A stretch of 64,000 nucleotides of DNA from Shinella fusca (lineage in GTDB: Bacteria; Pseudomonadota; Alphaproteobacteria; Rhizobiales; Rhizobiaceae): positions 1 through 64,000 of the forward strand of contig NZ_JACHIK010000007.1 of assembly GCF_014203155.1 (NCBI RefSeq), in the 5' to 3' direction. Position numbers and translations under genes: made by a program. Shown one piece after another: positions 48,967 through 54,833 of this stretch. The first letter of the stretch is position 1. Each line of letters opens with the position of its first letter. The notes under the pieces are model-generated. The model saw only the letters and a list, made by a program, of their open reading frames with translations. It was not told the origin of the DNA and did no database searches.

Positions 48967-48998
48967 ACCACAGGAAATCATCGGTGATTTCCTGTGGT
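48967..48998. terminator. Bidirectional hairpin terminator
   Basis: ACCACAGGAAATCA and TGATTTCCTGTGGT form a perfect 14-bp stem with a TCGG loop, between the small ORF and the convergent GH2 operon. Confidence 0.75.
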
Positions 48999-49002
48999 TC
49001 CG

Positions 49003-51450
49003 TCAGAACGAGACGATGGCCTCGATGCTAGGCCCGCGGATTTCTCCCGTGGGCTTTGCGGCCGGATCGGTGCCGGCGCGCGAGGCAAGGCGGATCGTCT
49101 TCACGCCGCCGGGCGCGAGATGGAACCAACTGTCCGATGGCAGGAAGCCCTCGGCCTCGATGGCGATGGACTGGGTGAAACGATCCGCCGAAAGGTCGAG
49201 CACCCAGCCTGCCGCATCCTGCCGAAGCGTCGCCGACAAGCTGGCGGGCGTCATCGCCGCCGTGCGGCCGCGCGGGAAATGGAAGGCTTCCGCAATCACC
49301 GCTCCCTCTTCGTCGAGAAGCCGGCCGACGGTCACGCCATGGGACGGCGGGCCGAAGCGGAAGGCATAGGTCGTGTCGAAGAAGGCGCCGAAAAGGCTCG
49401 TTGCCGGCAGCGTCTCGGCGGAGTGCGGCGCAAGCGCCATCTCCCGGCGGCCGGAAACGACCGGCTGGCGGCCGTGGCGCAGGCAGGAGAGTTCCAGCGT
49501 CAGGCGCCGCTCCTCCGCGCTGTCGTTGATCGCGTGGACGTCGAGGCCGTTGGTGCCCTCGTCGGAAAGCGCAAGCTGCACCGGGCGGAAGGCGCGGCGC
49601 AGCGCGTGCCAGGCGGATTTCGGCAGGCCCGTCGCATCGACCACGCCCCAGCCCGCGCCGGGCAGAAGGTCCTGGAAGGTCCAGACGAGGGCGCCGTTGC
49701 AGGTCGATTGCGCCCGGCGCCATTCGGCGAAGGTCGCCTCCATCACCTCGGCGACGGCGGCGCGGGAAAGGTCGAGATAACGCGCGGGGTCCTCGCGGCG
49801 AAGACGCGCCGGATCGATTTCATAGAGAAGGCCGAGATAGTGGTCGCGCACGTCCTCGAAATCCCAGGACGCGCCACGATCTCTTGGGACACGGGCCTTC
49901 CAGCGCGGATCGTGAACGGCCGGCACCGGCAGGTGCGCATCGAGCGTCGCCTGCTCCGGCACGTTGGCGAAGGCGAGGCTTTCGGCGGCAAAGCGCACCT
50001 CGGCGCGGCGCGCGTCATCCAGCGGCCGGCAATAGGCGCCGACGCCGTAATAATGCGTGACGCCGGCATTCGGCGAAAATGGCATGGCCCCGCCGCTCGG
50101 CGAATTTTCCACGTAAGGCACGTCCGGCCGGTGCGCGGCGCAAAGCATAGGCAGGATATCGCGTGTCAAAGGCCCGGCCCATGCCGTCTCCGGCAGGCCG
50201 AGCATTGCCGCCTGCTGGTCGATCTCGCTGCCGCCGCAGAGCACGGCGAGCGATGGCGAGGCGGCAACGGCGTCGAGGAACTGCGCGACTTCGGTGCGCA
50301 CGTTCTCGATGAAGGCGGGATCGTTCGCCGGATAATCGAAATTGGCGAACTGGAAATCCTGCCAGACGAGGATGCCGAGCTCGTCGCAGAGCGCGAAGAA
50401 GTCCGGCGTCTCGTAAGCCATCGTGCCGCCGATGCGCAGCATGTTCATGCCTGCATCCGCCGCGAGCTTCAGCGGCGGTTCGTAGCGCTCCCGCGTGCCG
50501 GGCAGATCGACGATATCGGCAGTGGTCCAGACGGCGCCGCGGCAGAAGATTTTCCGGCCGTTGACGATGAGCGCGAAATCCCGGCCGTCCGCGCCGCGGT
50601 CGATCTCGATGCGGCGAAAGCCGGTGCGGCCGAGGGAATGGCGCACTCCATCCACCGTCAGGGTAATGTCGTGCAGGACCGGCGTGCCGTGCGTGCGCGG
50701 CCACCAGGCTTCGACATCGGGGATCACGAGGCTGGCGCTGAAGCTGCGCTCTCCATTCGGGATCGCCTCGACGGCGACGCCCGCGCATTCCACGGTCGGC
50801 GTTGCCGCGCCGTCGAGCGAAAAGCCGATCTCCAGCCGGCCCTTGCCGTCCTCGTGAAGCCGTGCGGAGAGGCGGATATCCGTTGGAACGGCGGGCGCCG
50901 GCCGGGCGAGGCGCACCGGCCGCCACGGGCCGACGGCATGAACCTCCGGGCACCAGCCGGGCATGCGGCCGAGGAGGGTGGTGCGCACGAGCCGAAGCCC
51001 CTGCGGCGTGATCATCTGCGGGCGCCAGCGGGCGCGGGGCCCGCGCTTTTCGAGGTGCGGCTTCAGCGCGCGGAAACAGAGGGCGAGGCGGTCCCCGCCG
51101 GTCAGCGTGACCGGCAGGGTGTGGCGCACGAACATGCTGTCCGAGGAAAGCGCGAGCGCGCCGTTCCACCAGATCTCGGTGATCGTCGCGAGGCCGTCGA
51201 AATGCAGCATGGCCTCGCCGGGCGCCTCGCCGGCAAGGTCGAGCACGTACCAGGCGTCGAGATGGTCGAGCGGTTCGGGCGCGGCGCGGTCGAAGCGGCT
51301 GGCGCGTTCGAGGGCGCCGGCGACGGTGCCGGGCACGGGGGCGTCGATGAAACCGGAAAGGCCATTCAGCGCCGACGGGTCGGCCGCGCTGCCGGCAGGC
51401 AGCAGGGCCATGCGCCAGCCGGTGGAAAGCGCTTTTCCGGTATCGGGCAT
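49003..51450 (-). CDS. Glycoside hydrolase family 2 protein (beta-mannosidase-like)
   Basis: An 815-aa GH2 protein without signal peptide: N-terminal jelly-roll (about 1-180), an Ig-like domain, a TIM barrel (about 300-560) and C-terminal beta domains. Overall it is closest to beta-mannosidases. The catalytic positions are altered in context: the acid/base Glu is E409 in LCGGSEIDQQ (family norm GN-N-E) and the nucleophile candidate is E490 in AESLAFANVPEQ (norm SEFG). AAGGAGAGGG precedes ATG 51450. It is the last gene of the carrier-protein operon, 10 nt after DUF1839, so it may act on a glycosylated or glycan-linked product of it. Confidence 0.88.
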   Translation of the reverse strand: MPDTGKALSTGWRMALLPAGSAADPSALNGLSGFIDAPVPGTVAGALERASRFDRAAPEPLDHLDAWYVLDLAGEAPGEAMLHFDGLATITEIWWNGALALSSDSMFVRHTLPVTLTGGDRLALCFRALKPHLEKRGPRARWRPQMITPQGLRLVRTTLLGRMPGWCPEVHAVGPWRPVRLARPAPAVPTDIRLSARLHEDGKGRLEIGFSLDGAATPTVECAGVAVEAIPNGERSFSASLVIPDVEAWWPRTHGTPVLHDITLTVDGVRHSLGRTGFRRIEIDRGADGRDFALIVNGRKIFCRGAVWTTADIVDLPGTRERYEPPLKLAADAGMNMLRIGGTMAYETPDFFALCDELGILVWQDFQFANFDYPANDPAFIENVRTEVAQFLDAVAASPSLAVLCGGSEIDQQAAMLGLPETAWAGPLTRDILPMLCAAHRPDVPYVENSPSGGAMPFSPNAGVTHYYGVGAYCRPLDDARRAEVRFAAESLAFANVPEQATLDAHLPVPAVHDPRWKARVPRDRGASWDFEDVRDHYLGLLYEIDPARLRREDPARYLDLSRAAVAEVMEATFAEWRRAQSTCNGALVWTFQDLLPGAGWGVVDATGLPKSAWHALRRAFRPVQLALSDEGTNGLDVHAINDSAEERRLTLELSCLRHGRQPVVSGRREMALAPHSAETLPATSLFGAFFDTTYAFRFGPPSHGVTVGRLLDEEGAVIAEAFHFPRGRTAAMTPASLSATLRQDAAGWVLDLSADRFTQSIAIEAEGFLPSDSWFHLAPGGVKTIRLASRAGTDPAAKPTGEIRGPSIEAIVSF

Positions 51451-51460
51451 TCCCTCTCCT

Positions 51461-52414
51461 TCAGTCGATGCGGGCGGCAAGGCTCGACATCAGAGTATCC
51501 CACGCCTCGATGGCCGGGTCGAGCGCCGTTGCCAGCGGGTCGAACCTGCGGCGGGTCACGGCGCGGGCAAGCTGGAACTGCACGGACTTTGCCGTCTCCG
51601 AGATTTTGCGCGCGGCATCGCCATTGTCGAGGCCGAGCCAGTCGAGATGGCTTGCGGCCAGCTCGAAATTGGCACCGAGCTGGCGCAGCGTGTTGAAGGC
51701 GTATTTGTGGAAGAAGCCGAACGGCCGGTCCGCCACGGCCTCCACCTGCTGCGGAAAGACCTTTGCGAAGGCTGCGACGGGATTTTCCGCCGGGCGCCGG
51801 GCGAAATGGAAGGCGAGGAGGCGTCCCGCCTCGCGGCGCAGGTGAGCGTCGTCGGGGCGCTTTTCCGGGAACTTCGCAAATTCCGTATAGGGCAGGAAGG
51901 GCAGGTCCTCCGGGCCGTCGTTCAGGTGGAACAGGCCGTCGAAATCCTCGCCCTCCAGCCGGAAGAAGCCGGCATTGTGGAAATAGTCGAGCCGCTTGGC
52001 CTGAAGGTCCAGCCGGTTGATCGCCACCGTCGTCTTGCCGTGCTCCTGGCGGTAGGCGACGCCGCGGGTGTCCGGCATGTAGAAGCTGTCCATCTCGACG
52101 AGGCAGAGGCGCCCGCGCGCGATCTGCGTTTCGACATGGCCCTCCACCCGGTCGAAGATGGCAAGCTCGGTCGAGCGGATGCCGTAGAGCGCTTCGAGGT
52201 CTTCCAGCGGCACCTTGAAGAAGGTGAACTGGTCGCCCTCGAAATCCTGCGTCAAGGAGAAGCCCAGCATCGCCTCGGGCCGGGTGCCGAAAGCGTTCAG
52301 CACCTCGATCCAGAGGTCGACATAGCAGTTGGTCTCCGGCCACGCGCGCTCGGCGTCGTGCAGCGCGTGCGGCCGGTAGGTCGCGGGGTCGAGCCCGGGA
52401 AAGACGGCAGCCAT
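51461..52414 (-). CDS. DUF1839 family protein (proposed cysteine acyltransferase)
   Basis: A 317-aa cytosolic protein. It has C30 in ETNCYVDLWIEVL, then GDQFTFFKVP, D109 in VEMDSFYMPDT and H125 in YRQEHGKTTVA. This order (Cys, then D-x-x-x-x-P, then H in a Y-x-x-E-H motif) resembles the BtrH N-terminal family, which transfers an aminoacyl group from a carrier protein to an aminoglycoside. That link is my inference from pattern; the family has no known function. The ligase stop and this start are separated by 1 nt, so the two are coupled. Confidence 0.88.
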   Translation of the reverse strand: MAAVFPGLDPATYRPHALHDAERAWPETNCYVDLWIEVLNAFGTRPEAMLGFSLTQDFEGDQFTFFKVPLEDLEALYGIRSTELAIFDRVEGHVETQIARGRLCLVEMDSFYMPDTRGVAYRQEHGKTTVAINRLDLQAKRLDYFHNAGFFRLEGEDFDGLFHLNDGPEDLPFLPYTEFAKFPEKRPDDAHLRREAGRLLAFHFARRPAENPVAAFAKVFPQQVEAVADRPFGFFHKYAFNTLRQLGANFELAASHLDWLGLDNGDAARKISETAKSVQFQLARAVTRRRFDPLATALDPAIEAWDTLMSSLAARID

Positions 52415-52415
52415 G

Positions 52416-53330
52416 TCAGTCCTGGTATCCCAGCACGTTGCGCACGTCCGTCGGCCAGGCGGCGATGTCGAGGCCGTGGCGGGCGAAGAGCGCGAGCGCG
52501 ATCCGCTCCAGGCCGAAGCCGACGCAGGCGGTATGCGCGACGTCGCCGTTTTCCAGGTTGAGGCCCCATTTCGCGCCGAAGGCGTCCTGATGGTAGTTGA
52601 AGCTCATGCAGGCCGTCGGCTTGGCGGTGGACGTCACCGGGATCAGCAGCTCGAACTTCAGGTTCTGGTCGCGCTGGTTGTTGGCGAGCATGCGCCCGGC
52701 GCGGCCGAAGAACGGGTCATTGGCCACATCGATCGTCACGTCGAGGCCGACCTTGGCCATCATTTCGAGGCCCCGGTCCATCCAGGTCTGGCGGAAGGTC
52801 GTCACATGCTCCTGCGTGCCCATGCAGACATATTCGCGCATGCGGAAGAGCTGCTGGCGGGCCGGGTCGTTGGAGGGCTCGTGGCGGAAGCAGTAGGACT
52901 GCAGGTCGTAGAGCCCGCCGCCTGCCGGCAGGCGGCCGCGTTTGGCGATCGTCGGATAGAGCGGATAGCAGGCCGCCGGCGTCAGCACGATGTCGGTCGC
53001 CTTCTGGTCCTTCGTCCAGTCGCCCTCGACCTCCATGCATTGCAGGAGGCTCATGTGGTCGAGCTCGCCGCCGCAGAAGCTGTGCACGGTGCCGGCAAGC
53101 TGCGGGAAGCTCTTCATGTAGCCGGAGGTCTCGAAATGCGCGCGGTTCATGCCCGGCGGAAAGCGCATCGCCTCCGCGCCGTCGGCCCCGCCATAAGTGT
53201 CGACCAGCCGCTCGAAGCGGGCGATGACGTCCTCGAAGGCGCCCGAGCGGCCGTAAAGGCCCTCGACGCCGGTGTCGATGAGAAGGCCGGAATCGAAGAG
53301 CCGGTCGAGAAGGGAAGTCTGCATGTCCAT
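52416..53330 (-). CDS. Amino acid:[carrier protein] ligase
   Basis: A 304-aa class II aminoacyl-tRNA synthetase homologue of the atypical seryl type, lacking a tRNA-binding domain. Motif 2 is CFRHEPS...LFRMREY and motif 3 is [12 protein letters not shown]. Zinc ligands fall at C121, E166 and C269; their spacing (45 and 103) equals that of the characterised Bradyrhizobium enzyme (C131, E176, C279, from memory). Such enzymes activate glycine or alanine with ATP and load it onto the phosphopantetheine of a dedicated small carrier protein instead of tRNA. The carrier gene lies in the same operon at 54504. Confidence 0.93.
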
Positions 53331-53334
53331 GGTG

Positions 53335-54507
53335 TCACCCGATCAGGCTGGTGTCCTGCTTGTGGACAAGCAGGAGGTTCGACGTGTTGCCGAGGATGCG
53401 GTCGTTGGAGATCATCAGCTGGGCGGAATGCGCGTCGCGCAGGTGCCGGCCGAGGCTGAAGGGCGTGCCGTTCTTGTAGCCCATGATGCCGCAGATCAGC
53501 ATCGCCTGGTTGATGATGGCAAGGATCGTTTCGGAGGACGCGATCTTCACGTTGTTCATCGCCACGGCAAAGCCCATGGAGGAAAGCCGGTCGGGATCCG
53601 CCTTGGCTGCCTCGTATTCCTTGAGGCCGGCAATGGTGTTGGATTTGACGAGCTGGAGGAGGTTTACGGCTTCCGCAAGGCGCAGCGCGCCGGGCGGCGT
53701 CACGCCGGGGCTCTTGCGGGCGGCGGCGCGCACGAAGGCCTGCGCGCGGGAAACGGCGTTGACGGCGATGCCGTACCAGACGGCGCTCCACAAGAGATGC
53801 GAGGTGGCGAGCATCGACTGCGCCGCGATCTCGGCGAAGGGCTTGGGAAGGATCTGCTCCTTCGGCGCCTCTCCCTTGAAGAGCCAGCCGTCCGAGCAGG
53901 TGCCGCGCATGCCGAGCGTATCCCAGACATGGGTCTGCTCCAGCGTGTACTGGTCTTTGGTGAAGACGGTCATGACCTGGTCGGTCGAGGCGGCGTCCGC
54001 ATGGGCGCGCGAGGTGATGAGGATCGCGTCGGCATGGGCGCCGTAGGAGATGACGGTCGCATCCTTCGTCAGGCGGCAGGTGTCGCCGGTAATCTCGATG
54101 GCACAGATGCTGTTGCGGAGATTCCCGCCGATGCCGCCCTCGGTCGTCGCCGAGGCGAGAAGCAACTGTTCGCCGGCGACGCGGCGCATGAAGGCGGAAT
54201 GCCAGGCGTCGCCCGCGCCGTGCGAGACGAGGCTCGACAGCTTGATATGGTGCATGGCGAAGACCATGGCCGCCGCCGAGCAGGACTGGCCGATCAGCGA
54301 GCAGACTTCCGCGATCTCGGAAAGGGAGGCATCCTCGCCGCCGAGGGCTGCGGGGATCTGGATGGAGAGCAGCCGTTCGGCGATCATCGCGTCGACGGCT
54401 TCGCGCGGGAAGCGGGCCCTGGCGTCCACGTCGTCGGCATGCGCTGCGGCCACGGCGGAAACGCGCTCGGCGCGCTCGGCAAGGCCCTTTCCGACGGTGA
54501 CGGTCAT
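53335..54507 (-). CDS. Acyl-CoA dehydrogenase-like flavoprotein
   Basis: A 390-aa protein with the three-domain acyl-CoA dehydrogenase fold: helical N-terminus, beta domain ([11 protein letters not shown]...), and a C-terminal helical bundle. The canonical catalytic Glu of the YEGT motif is absent; that stretch reads [14 protein letters not shown] after RHLRDAHSA. It may therefore be a monooxygenase or a carrier-bound aminoacyl oxidase rather than a fatty-acid enzyme. It overlaps the carrier-protein gene by 4 nt, and the ligase starts 4 nt after its stop. Confidence 0.88.
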
Positions 54508-54758
54508 TCGGCGGCCTCCGCGCTGCCGACAAGGCCGGAGACCGCCCGCGTGATCGCATCGATGCTCTGGAAGGACTTGCGGTTGAGGAGGTTGTCGGGG
54601 AACTCGACGTCGAAGGCGTCCTCGATGCCGAGCATCACCTGCACGGAGGCGAAGGAGGAAAGACCCGCCGCATAGAGATCGGCATCGTCCGCGAGCGTAT
54701 CGACCGGAACCGGAAGACCGCCGTGCTTGCCGAGGATTTCACGAATCGTCTGCTTCAT
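54504..54758 (-). CDS. Stand-alone acyl/aminoacyl carrier protein
   Basis: An 84-aa four-helix carrier. The phosphopantetheine site is in DLYAAGLSSFASVQVM, with S35 (x-S-F) the likely attachment Ser, so it departs from the DSL of fatty-acid ACPs. It is acidic (DAFDVEFPDNLL). ATG 54758 has GGAGAAG 4-6 nt upstream; an ATG at 54770 adds four residues. It is first in the operon and the expected partner of the amino acid:[carrier protein] ligase. Confidence 0.9.
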   Translation of the reverse strand: MKQTIREILGKHGGLPVPVDTLADDADLYAAGLSSFASVQVMLGIEDAFDVEFPDNLLNRKSFQSIDAITRAVSGLVGSAEAAE

Positions 54759-54833
54759 CTTCTTCTCCATCGCTTTCTTTGCCGGCCGGGGAGGCCATCG
54801 GCTTATCGTTCCGCACATCCATAACCGGCGGTT

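Follow-up and report, generated by a model that had tools for sequence, protein, structure and literature searches.

Gene content and organization

The window analysed here is a 64,000-nucleotide stretch of DNA from the soil bacterium Shinella fusca (contig NZ_JACHIK010000007.1, positions 1 to 64,000). Five genes with intact reading frames lie on its minus strand at 49003..54758 and are confirmed as an operon encoding a carrier protein (CP), an acyl-CoA dehydrogenase-like (ACAD-like) flavoprotein, a ligase, a DUF1839 protein and a GH2 glycosidase:

54504..54758, minus strand: CP, 84 aa (NF005480, 121 bits against a cut-off of 72, and PF00550)
53335..54507, minus strand: ACAD-like flavoprotein (PF02771 and PF00441 above cut-off, PF02770 below cut-off)
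52416..53330, minus strand: amino acid:[carrier protein] ligase, a SerRS-core homologue (NF005479, 508 bits against a cut-off of 357)
51461..52414, minus strand: DUF1839 protein, a predicted carrier-dependent amide synthase with a papain-like fold (PF08893, 442 bits)
49003..51450, minus strand: GH2 glycosidase of the beta-mannosidase type (PF22666 above cut-off; stop at 49003)

From the coordinates, the CP and ACAD-like genes overlap by 4 nt, and gaps of 4 nt and 1 nt separate the ACAD-like gene from the ligase and the ligase from DUF1839. The GH2 start is taken as the ATG at 51450, preceded by AAGGAGAGG, which leaves a gap of 10 nt from DUF1839. With this start the coordinates bear out the packing given in the initial annotation, with overlaps or gaps of 1-10 nt. 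An alternative, longer GH2 start is the TTG at 51480, which would give a 20 nt overlap with DUF1839. An in-frame ATG at 54770 would lengthen the CP by 4 aa.

Conservation of the operon and a sixth partner

The gene grouping is conserved beyond chance. In a sample of the order (199 genomes, 100 genera), DUF1839 adjoins the ligase in 26/26 cases. Detailed reading of 26 loci found CP, ACAD-like, ligase and DUF1839 genes in 26/26 and GH2 in 25/26; the 20 kb locus reading excluded G458 and G469. The order ACAD-like, ligase, DUF1839, GH2 is kept in 79/80 named loci. A pattern scan gave at least 570 matches, of which the best 80 were retained. The DUF1839 set consisted of 61 non-redundant proteins of 80, reduced to 53 plus the window copy. 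The genes stay together in other genomes and do not show the separation that the initial annotation had named as contrary to its reading. Mirror-tree correlations of 0.66-0.91 carry little weight, as shared phylogeny is uncontrolled in them.

The ligase is conserved within the five-gene unit as annotated, but it is not confined to it; at other loci, the ligase and flavoprotein also exist without DUF1839 and GH2, in a different gene setting. Second DUF1839 copies in one family (f247) sit away from the ligase. Beyond six families, gene clusters reach at most 8/41 loci; therefore, an export or resistance gene is not a fixed partner. An enzyme that would form the sugar amine was not seen among the fixed partners.

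The five genes of the initial annotation are real, but the set is incomplete. A tandem alpha/beta-hydrolase (HYD), encoded outside the window in the Shinella fusca genome, is a sixth partner. DUF1839, this GH2 subfamily and HYD have an identical distribution over 26/199 order genomes and 14/100 genera, with the absence of HYD and GH2 judged from the best 6 and 4 candidates per genome, respectively. HYD is found in 38/38 DUF1839 genomes (26 from the order sample and 12/12 further). It was not found in 173/173 DUF1839-negative order genomes, 10 of which have the ligase above cut-off; therefore, HYD seems to depend on the DUF1839 system.

Carrier protein and ligase

Judged by sequence, the ligase belongs to the amino acid:[carrier protein] ligase family, its profile score lying above the curated cut-off. 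Enzymes of this family use ATP to activate a small amino acid, glycine or alanine, which they load on the phosphopantetheine of a dedicated carrier; Bll0957 and similar ligases were reportedly the subject of work by Mocibob in 2010. Against the PDB, the ligase scores 335 bits to 4h2w and 320 bits to Bll0957 (3mey). The 304 aa that align with 4h2w residues 40-333 correspond to the SerRS catalytic core without the tRNA-binding domain. Residues C121, E166 and C269, which we take to be a Cys-Glu-Cys set of zinc ligands, are kept in 41/41. The presumed phosphopantetheine site of the CP is Ser35 in the motif GLSS, and both S35 and E46 are conserved in at least 33/34 carriers. Ligases such as Bll0957 have been described (PMC9437257, PMC2922099), and the biological role of their carrier loading is called unknown in a passage of PMC9437257. 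Both the ligase and the CP studied here are members of the same families (NF005479, NF005480).

The flavoprotein

The flavoprotein has the acyl-CoA dehydrogenase fold and family domains, as annotated, but the label of dehydrogenase is doubtful because the catalytic base of these enzymes is missing. The Glu is absent at both the SCAD and the isovaleryl-CoA positions in 37/37 proteins, as mapped by pairwise alignments and by eye from the residues which we take to be the catalytic Glu of the reference dehydrogenases. Position 366 is Ile or Val and position 236 is Ser, Ala or Cys in 37/37, and His237 is invariant. A canonical acyl-CoA dehydrogenase was therefore dropped as the default assignment. 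Dehydrogenases and oxygenases are mixed, and not separated, in the top 50 fold matches from Foldseek. Among sequence matches, dehydrogenases rank first to third, and DnmZ, like KijD3 a nitrososynthase of the flavin N-oxygenase kind, ranks 4th.

DUF1839 as a candidate amide synthase

The AF2 model of DUF1839 has a pLDDT of 89.5 and a pTM of 0.89. All 18 PDB chains matched at E<=0.001 are AziU3/U2, CtaG or CcbD, and the first match beyond this threshold is phytochelatin synthase at 0.056. The fold match is moderate (query TM 0.51-0.62, rmsd 5.2-7.3). A profile of 21 DUF1839 proteins searched against the PDB up to E=10 returned chance matches only and no CcbD or CtaG chain. With no detectable sequence homology, DUF1839 is therefore described as working like these enzymes and not as a member of their families. 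It is a predicted CcbD/CtaG-like carrier-dependent amide synthase, with the fold taken from the model and the reaction suggested by analogy.

Residues C30, H146, K276, Q279, R284 and R288 are invariant in 26/26. C30 and H146 are 116 residues apart, compared with 117 for C11/H128 of CtaG (from PDB titles) and 112 for C19/H131 of CcbD. The spacing of K276-Q279-R284 (3, 5) equals that of R316-Q319-R324 in CcbD, a match that covers three of the five residues listed for carrier binding in CcbD and was chosen post hoc; R288 is without a listed carrier-binding counterpart in CcbD. In the model and alignment, the invariant basic residues are located on the C-terminal helix. A signal peptide was not seen by eye at the N terminus. 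CcbD couples CP-bound proline to the amine of a thiooctose through a Cys-His-Glu ping-pong mechanism (PMC12945683).

The Cys-His-acid triad of CcbD and CtaG was compared with DUF1839 by residue spacing, which covers the Cys and the His. A 2023 survey of papain-like enzymes describes a C(T/S)H site in DUF1839, whose His is swapped relative to the normal arrangement (PMC10318531); as worded there, this site does not map simply onto the Cys-His-Glu of CcbD. At ligase loci that lack DUF1839, a GNAT-like protein (c7) was considered as its substitute from a resemblance by eye and was not adopted; one member had no Pfam match and an 8-protein profile had no PDB match.

GH2 and HYD

GH2 matches the beta-mannosidase 2vjx (1.7e-44). 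Residues E419 and E500, presumably the catalytic pair of the beta-mannosidase type, align to 2vjx and are kept in 25/25. The beta-mannosidase criterion is an Asn before the acid/base Glu, as in 2vjx; this place is held by Ser in 25/25 of the operon proteins. A hydrophobic signal stretch was not seen by eye in GH2.

The second domain of HYD has a G-x-Cys-x-G elbow with Cys in 55/55 aligned proteins (55 of 87 matches, retained by length), whereas the elbow of the first domain carries Gly or Arg where the nucleophile would be. Esterases and hydrolases make up most of the solved relatives, and the majority were matched via the first domain. One representative HYD resembles the exosortase A-associated hydrolases 1/2 in matching TIGR03100 and TIGR03101 in a single chain, but it scores below both cut-offs (114 vs 168 bits and 57 vs 203 bits, respectively). 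In genome G131, HYD occurs with the ligase and carrier without DUF1839 or the flavoprotein. In G186, GH2 and HYD are together, apart from the ligase.

Polysaccharide neighbourhood

HYD of Shinella fusca sits in a polysaccharide cluster that contains glycosyltransferases, a GNVR chain-length-type protein, Wzy_C, MurJ and a polysaccharide deacetylase. The window operon of the same genome has no adjoining polysaccharide gene. The flanks of 19 operon loci (138 proteins) contain 12 PF13692 glycosyltransferases, 5 Polysacc_synt proteins and 3 each of Bac_transf, MannoseP_isomer, Wzy_C and GH5. Of 15 retrieved ligase loci that lack DUF1839, 7 were counted (79 proteins); around these, glycosyltransferases are outside the 25 commonest families, the lowest of which shown has 2 members. 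Flippase-type Polysacc_synt is equally frequent at the two kinds of loci (3/79, plus 2 Wzz, vs 5/138). Genes of <90 or >1100 aa were removed before totals of 140 and 90 proteins were reached; the polA-like gene of the window and L051:14385-17420 were then subtracted from the former, and 11 proteins of L054 from the latter. The neighbouring GH5 is not supported as a fixed partner, as the GH5 of a sister Shinella is unmatched in the Shinella fusca genome in a search that had no positive control.

Proposed pathway

The system is probably an aminoacyl-transfer pathway based on a carrier protein, and the amino sugar that it decorates would belong to a surface (exo)polysaccharide; its predicted steps are loading, oxidation and transfer. 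This reading is favoured because the operon is conserved and DUF1839, GH2 and HYD co-occur, because just three systems, all carrier-dependent, account for the DUF1839 fold matches at E<=0.001, and because glycosyltransferase-type genes flank operon loci and HYD lies in a polysaccharide cluster. The ligase, with ATP, would put a small amino acid on the CP phosphopantetheine, as expected from its family. The flavoprotein may then act on the CP-bound aminoacyl group; since the Glu base is missing, it would more likely oxygenate or oxidise the amine or alpha carbon than form an alpha,beta double bond. Cys30 of DUF1839 would accept the aminoacyl group and hand it over in the cytoplasm to a sugar amine, which could belong to a nucleotide sugar or a lipid-linked repeat, with CcbD in celesticetin synthesis as the model. 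GH2 and HYD, the latter with its invariant elbow Cys, might perhaps trim, edit or re-transfer the glycan or aminoacyl product. The neighbourhood suggests that the product would join a Wzx/Wzy-type exopolysaccharide.

The initial annotation is partly supported overall. The order that it suggested, from loading through oxidation or modification and transfer to action on a sugar-bearing acceptor, agrees with the DUF1839 fold and the polysaccharide genes near HYD and many copies of the operon. A more specific version is offered tentatively and with low confidence: aaRS-like activation, on-carrier oxidation by an oxygenase of acyl-CoA dehydrogenase fold (e.g. to an N-hydroxy, oxime or imino group) and coupling to an exopolysaccharide amino sugar by an antibiotic-type amide synthase would give an oxidised aminoacyl polymer that rhizobia share with one or more families from outside their class. 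To our knowledge, surface polymers bearing this kind of oxidised aminoacyl group are not known. If the main pathway reading is right, antibiotic-type amide synthases would be linked to surface polysaccharide chemistry in plant-associated bacteria. The purpose of the thioester becomes testable, as to sugar, amino acid and oxidation, now that there is a candidate transferase with a structural precedent, a hydrolase and a glycosidase as fixed partners and a polysaccharide setting.

It is rather unlikely that the product is a small diffusible aminoacyl-sugar, lincosamide-like or for signalling, and that the polysaccharide genes are merely nearby. The DUF1839 fold relatives at E<=0.001 serve small-molecule biosynthesis, including AziU3, which we take to work on azinomycin, and the window operon is not next to polysaccharide genes. 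However, the surroundings of the operon repeatedly contain HYD, glycosyltransferases, Wzy and WcaJ-type genes, and neither export nor resistance genes are among the fixed partners.

Two other readings are each improbable. DUF1839 could process glycans of the cell wall as a hydrolase or amidase, in line with its papain-like C(T/S)H site and a guess from gene context, in a passage of PMC10318531, of acyl-CoA-dependent wall glycan processing. However, its model is closer to carrier-dependent enzymes than to proteases or phytochelatin synthase, and the invariant basic helix residues and the N terminus without a visible signal peptide also argue against this role. Alternatively, HYD could form the bond while DUF1839 just loads or positions the aminoacyl group. 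The invariant second-domain Cys and the gene arrangements in G131 and G186 are consistent with such a role for HYD; its absence from the 173 DUF1839-negative order genomes and the esterase and hydrolase character of its solved relatives argue against it. Aminoacylated lipids are common, but a lipid or protein amino group as the acceptor in place of a sugar is very improbable, as the GH2 subfamily is tightly linked and glycosyltransferases top the list of flanking families.

Relation to known systems

The amino-sugar decoration reading is close to one already in print, so the pathway is not new as the initial annotation had proposed. In a note added in proof, Iyer et al. (2010) reported the same kind of gene set, a SerRS-paralogue neighbourhood with Atu2574, and proposed that its uncharacterised protein couples the amino acid with an amino sugar of the cell surface (PMC2922099). 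The ACP, redox enzyme, uncharacterised ORF, glycosidase and liposaccharide genes of that neighbourhood agree with the operon, as does the general proposal, and the system is therefore not undescribed. Atu2574 is probably DUF1839, judging from the Agrobacterium loci. A link to the unipolar polysaccharide of Agrobacterium was considered and is not claimed. The passage in PMC2922099 differs in that it neither assigns the transferase to a structural class nor mentions HYD or a co-occurrence count. The present analysis adds the co-occurrence of DUF1839, GH2 and HYD, the polysaccharide setting of HYD, the DUF1839 fold match and the missing flavoprotein Glu. A literature search on amino acid groups of rhizobial exopolysaccharide, which included parts of PMC12419801, showed nothing on the present system among the papers listed and is not proof of absence.

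Lincosamide synthetase (CcbD/LmbD, CcbC/LmbC) likewise has a free-standing activation enzyme, a small carrier and a papain-fold condensing enzyme, and its acceptor is an amino sugar, according to passages of PMC12945683 and PMC4351081. It differs in that an A domain activates there and an aaRS-like ligase here; the present operon adds the flavoprotein, GH2, HYD and the polysaccharide setting, and sequence similarity is undetectable. CtaG of closthioamide synthesis, proposed to move an acyl group between carriers (PMC6772006), and AziU3/U2 of azinomycin synthesis share the fold match to DUF1839. The acceptor of CtaG is a carrier-bound peptide and not a sugar. The Dlt system of teichoic acid D-alanylation also brings carrier-borne alanine to a surface polymer, but differs in that esters are formed outside the membrane by DltB/DltD.

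Composition and conservation of the operon

The five genes that the initial annotation placed in this region are all present and intact on the minus strand:

54758-54504, minus strand: carrier protein, intact
54507-53335, minus strand: acyl-CoA-dehydrogenase-like (ACAD) flavoprotein, intact
53330-52416, minus strand: amino acid:carrier protein ligase, intact
52414-51461, minus strand: DUF1839 protein, intact
51450-49003, minus strand: GH2 glycosidase, intact, preferred start the ATG at 51450

The GH2 start lies 10 nt past DUF1839 and is preceded by AAGGAGAGG. The window opens contig 7 of a 4.85 Mb genome, and its operon copy is flanked by a polA-like gene and a UPF0029 gene. A 900-aa open frame antisense to GH2 (48994-51696, plus strand) looks like the shadow frame of a G+C-rich gene and not a gene.

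The genes keep company in other genomes as well. DUF1839 was found in 4 of 289 genomes of the class sample, 26 of 199 of the order sample and 16 of 398 of the phylum sample (four of these in f247, a family outside the class). The ligase exceeded the cut-off in 7/289 class genomes, which include all 4 with DUF1839, there adjoining the ligase, and in 36/199 order genomes; DUF1839 is next to the ligase in 26/26 of the order. Two of the four f247 genomes have an extra DUF1839 copy apart from the ligase. A scan with one genome per species gave at least 570 stretches encoding DUF1839, of which the best 80 (72-92% identity to the query) were retained. The order ACAD, ligase, DUF1839, GH2 occurs in 79 of these best 80, and the carrier was called in 73. 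The closest named DUF1839 genes among the matches listed are seven from Shinella (80-92% identity). The carrier, ACAD, ligase and DUF1839 were each present in all 26 loci examined in detail, and GH2 in 25. Fifteen ligase loci without DUF1839 were fetched; ACAD is present in 11 and GH2 in none.

A sixth partner

Clustering of the operon neighbours revealed HYD, a protein of about 580 aa with two fused alpha/beta-hydrolase domains. In 17 of the 26 loci examined in detail the 20-kb stretch contains it, adjoining the operon or a few genes off, and the fetched stretch contains it in 24 of the best 80; apart from HYD, no neighbour cluster occurs in more than 8 of 41 loci. One representative matches both exosortase-A-associated hydrolase 1 and hydrolase 2 along a single chain, under both cut-offs, and the HYD profile matches solved alpha/beta-hydrolases, chiefly via the first domain.

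At E <= 1e-20, with the best 6 candidates per genome scored, HYD was found in 26 of 199 order genomes, exactly the DUF1839-positive set, and not in the 173 DUF1839-negative genomes, ten of which have a ligase over the cut-off. The GH2 subfamily (E <= 1e-100, best 4 candidates) occurs in the same 26; since only these best candidates were scored, neither absence is absolute. These genomes represent 14 of 100 genera, and, on the assumption of independent genera, which holds only in part, an identical genus set would arise in about 1 in 4e16 draws. Twelve more DUF1839 genomes all have HYD, giving 38/38. Among individual genomes, G131 departs from the pattern in the opposite sense, having the carrier, ligase and HYD, with ACAD, DUF1839 and GH2 not found; G140 has the ligase without DUF1839 or HYD; and in G186 GH2 is away from the ligase, with about 35 nt between its match and the HYD match. 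The six-partner system is real and conserved.

The second-domain elbow of HYD reads G-x-Cys-x-G, with Cys in 55/55 aligned proteins, while the nucleophile place of the first-domain elbow holds Gly in 40 and Arg in 15. A Cys acting as nucleophile would be in keeping with acyl transfer. HYD of the window's genome is on contig 2 (336243-337916) and has only 37% identity to that of the sister Shinella; therefore, judged by sequence, it may be of another lineage.

DUF1839 and its predicted role

A sequence search of DUF1839 against the PDB found no match. Its AF2 model (mean pLDDT 89.5, pTM 0.89) matched 18 PDB chains at E <= 0.001, all of them AziU3/U2 (azinomycin), CtaG (closthioamide) or CcbD (celesticetin), with query TM 0.51-0.62; the next match is phytochelatin synthase (0.056). 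Residues C30, H146, K276, Q279, R284 and R288 are invariant (26/26). The C30-H146 spacing is 116 residues, compared with 117 for CtaG C11/H128 and 112 for CcbD C19/H131. K276-Q279-R284 has the spacing of CcbD R316-Q319-R324, a match chosen post hoc. CcbD is described as transferring carrier-bound proline to a thiooctose amine by a Cys-His-Glu ping-pong mechanism, with R312, R316, Q319, R323 and R324 binding the carrier (PMC12945683). The proposed role of CtaG is hydroxybenzoyl transfer between carriers (PMC6772006).

A 2023 survey assigns DUF1839 a papain-like fold and a C(T/S)H site with His and Thr/Ser swapped, and conjectures that it processes glycans at the wall in an acyl-CoA-dependent way; neither CcbD nor AziU3 appears in its main text (PMC10318531). 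The swapped order has no simple fit to the CcbD triad.

The initial annotation suggested that this would be a new pathway; the system had been described before. A note in proof in Iyer et al. 2010 describes this gene neighbourhood, predicts that proteins of the type of Atu2574 (an Agrobacterium ORF) form an amide between an amino acid and an amino sugar of the surface, and suggests that the redox enzyme performs monooxygenation (PMC2922099). Our results support that proposal and supply a structural class, the additional partner HYD and occurrence counts. With moderate confidence, the system is predicted to aminoacylate an exopolysaccharide amino sugar by a CcbD-like mechanism.

Ligase, flavoprotein and GH2

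The ligase is, by its sequence, a clear member of the amino acid:carrier protein ligase family; C121, E166 and C269 are present in 41/41. The flavoprotein has the ACAD fold, with Ile/Val at the Glu place of SCAD and Ser/Ala/Cys at that of isovaleryl-CoA dehydrogenase (both 37/37, mapped by eye). His237 is invariant (37/37). Since glycyl groups lack a beta carbon, desaturation would be impossible for glycine. The ACAD fold search returned dehydrogenases, sulfur oxygenases and nitrososynthases intermixed. GH2 retains both Glu in 25/25, and Ser replaces the Asn preceding the acid/base, a change similar to that in GH2 exo-glucosaminidases.

Polysaccharide setting

Three glycosyltransferases and a further cut-off glycosyltransferase-like frame surround HYD in the window's genome, together with a polysaccharide deacetylase, a GNVR chain-length-type protein, a MurJ-type flippase and a Wzy_C protein. 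In Shinella sp. CPCC 101442 the row polA (named by eye), GT4, GH5 leads up to the five genes, and HYD, a Polysacc_synt_3 protein and GT2 come after them; the GH5 of the sister Shinella gave no match in the window's genome. Other operon loci are flanked by WcaJ-type initiating transferase, ManC-type and Wzy-type genes. The 138 proteins flanking 19 operon loci include PF13692 glycosyltransferases (12), Polysacc_synt (5), Bac_transf, MannoseP_isomer, Wzy_C and cellulase (3 each). Around seven ligase loci that lack DUF1839, the 79 flanking proteins are led by AMP-binding and SDR proteins (6 each), and glycosyltransferases are not among the 25 families shown. Polysacc_synt (3) and Wzz (2) do occur there, so flippase-type genes fail to separate the two settings.

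Ligase and DUF1839 in other settings

At loci L055-L064 and L067 the ligase and ACAD recur without DUF1839 or GH2, and the carrier is usually encoded on the other strand. Often present too are an AMP-binding enzyme, a second carrier, an SDR and a conserved 285-aa protein (cluster c7). These loci are predicted to encode a second pathway sharing the ligase/ACAD loading and oxidation unit. Members of clusters c21 and c22 lie near four of them (L055, L056, L063 and L064). The flanks of the DUF1839-less ligase loci hold three Cys/Met-metabolism PLP enzymes and three homoserine O-succinyltransferases, which is probably what c21 and c22 are.

L065, L066 and L068 carry distant homologues of the ligase, about 400 aa long and with 28-32% identity, that adjoin a conserved 503-506-aa protein, and two of these loci have a 75-85-aa neighbour; the window's carrier and ACAD have no match there. 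At L157 and L166, both of f247, a second DUF1839 paralogue lies apart from the five-gene operon and adjoins a ManC-type gene, a protein of about 770 aa and HYD. This paralogue could have its own acceptor.
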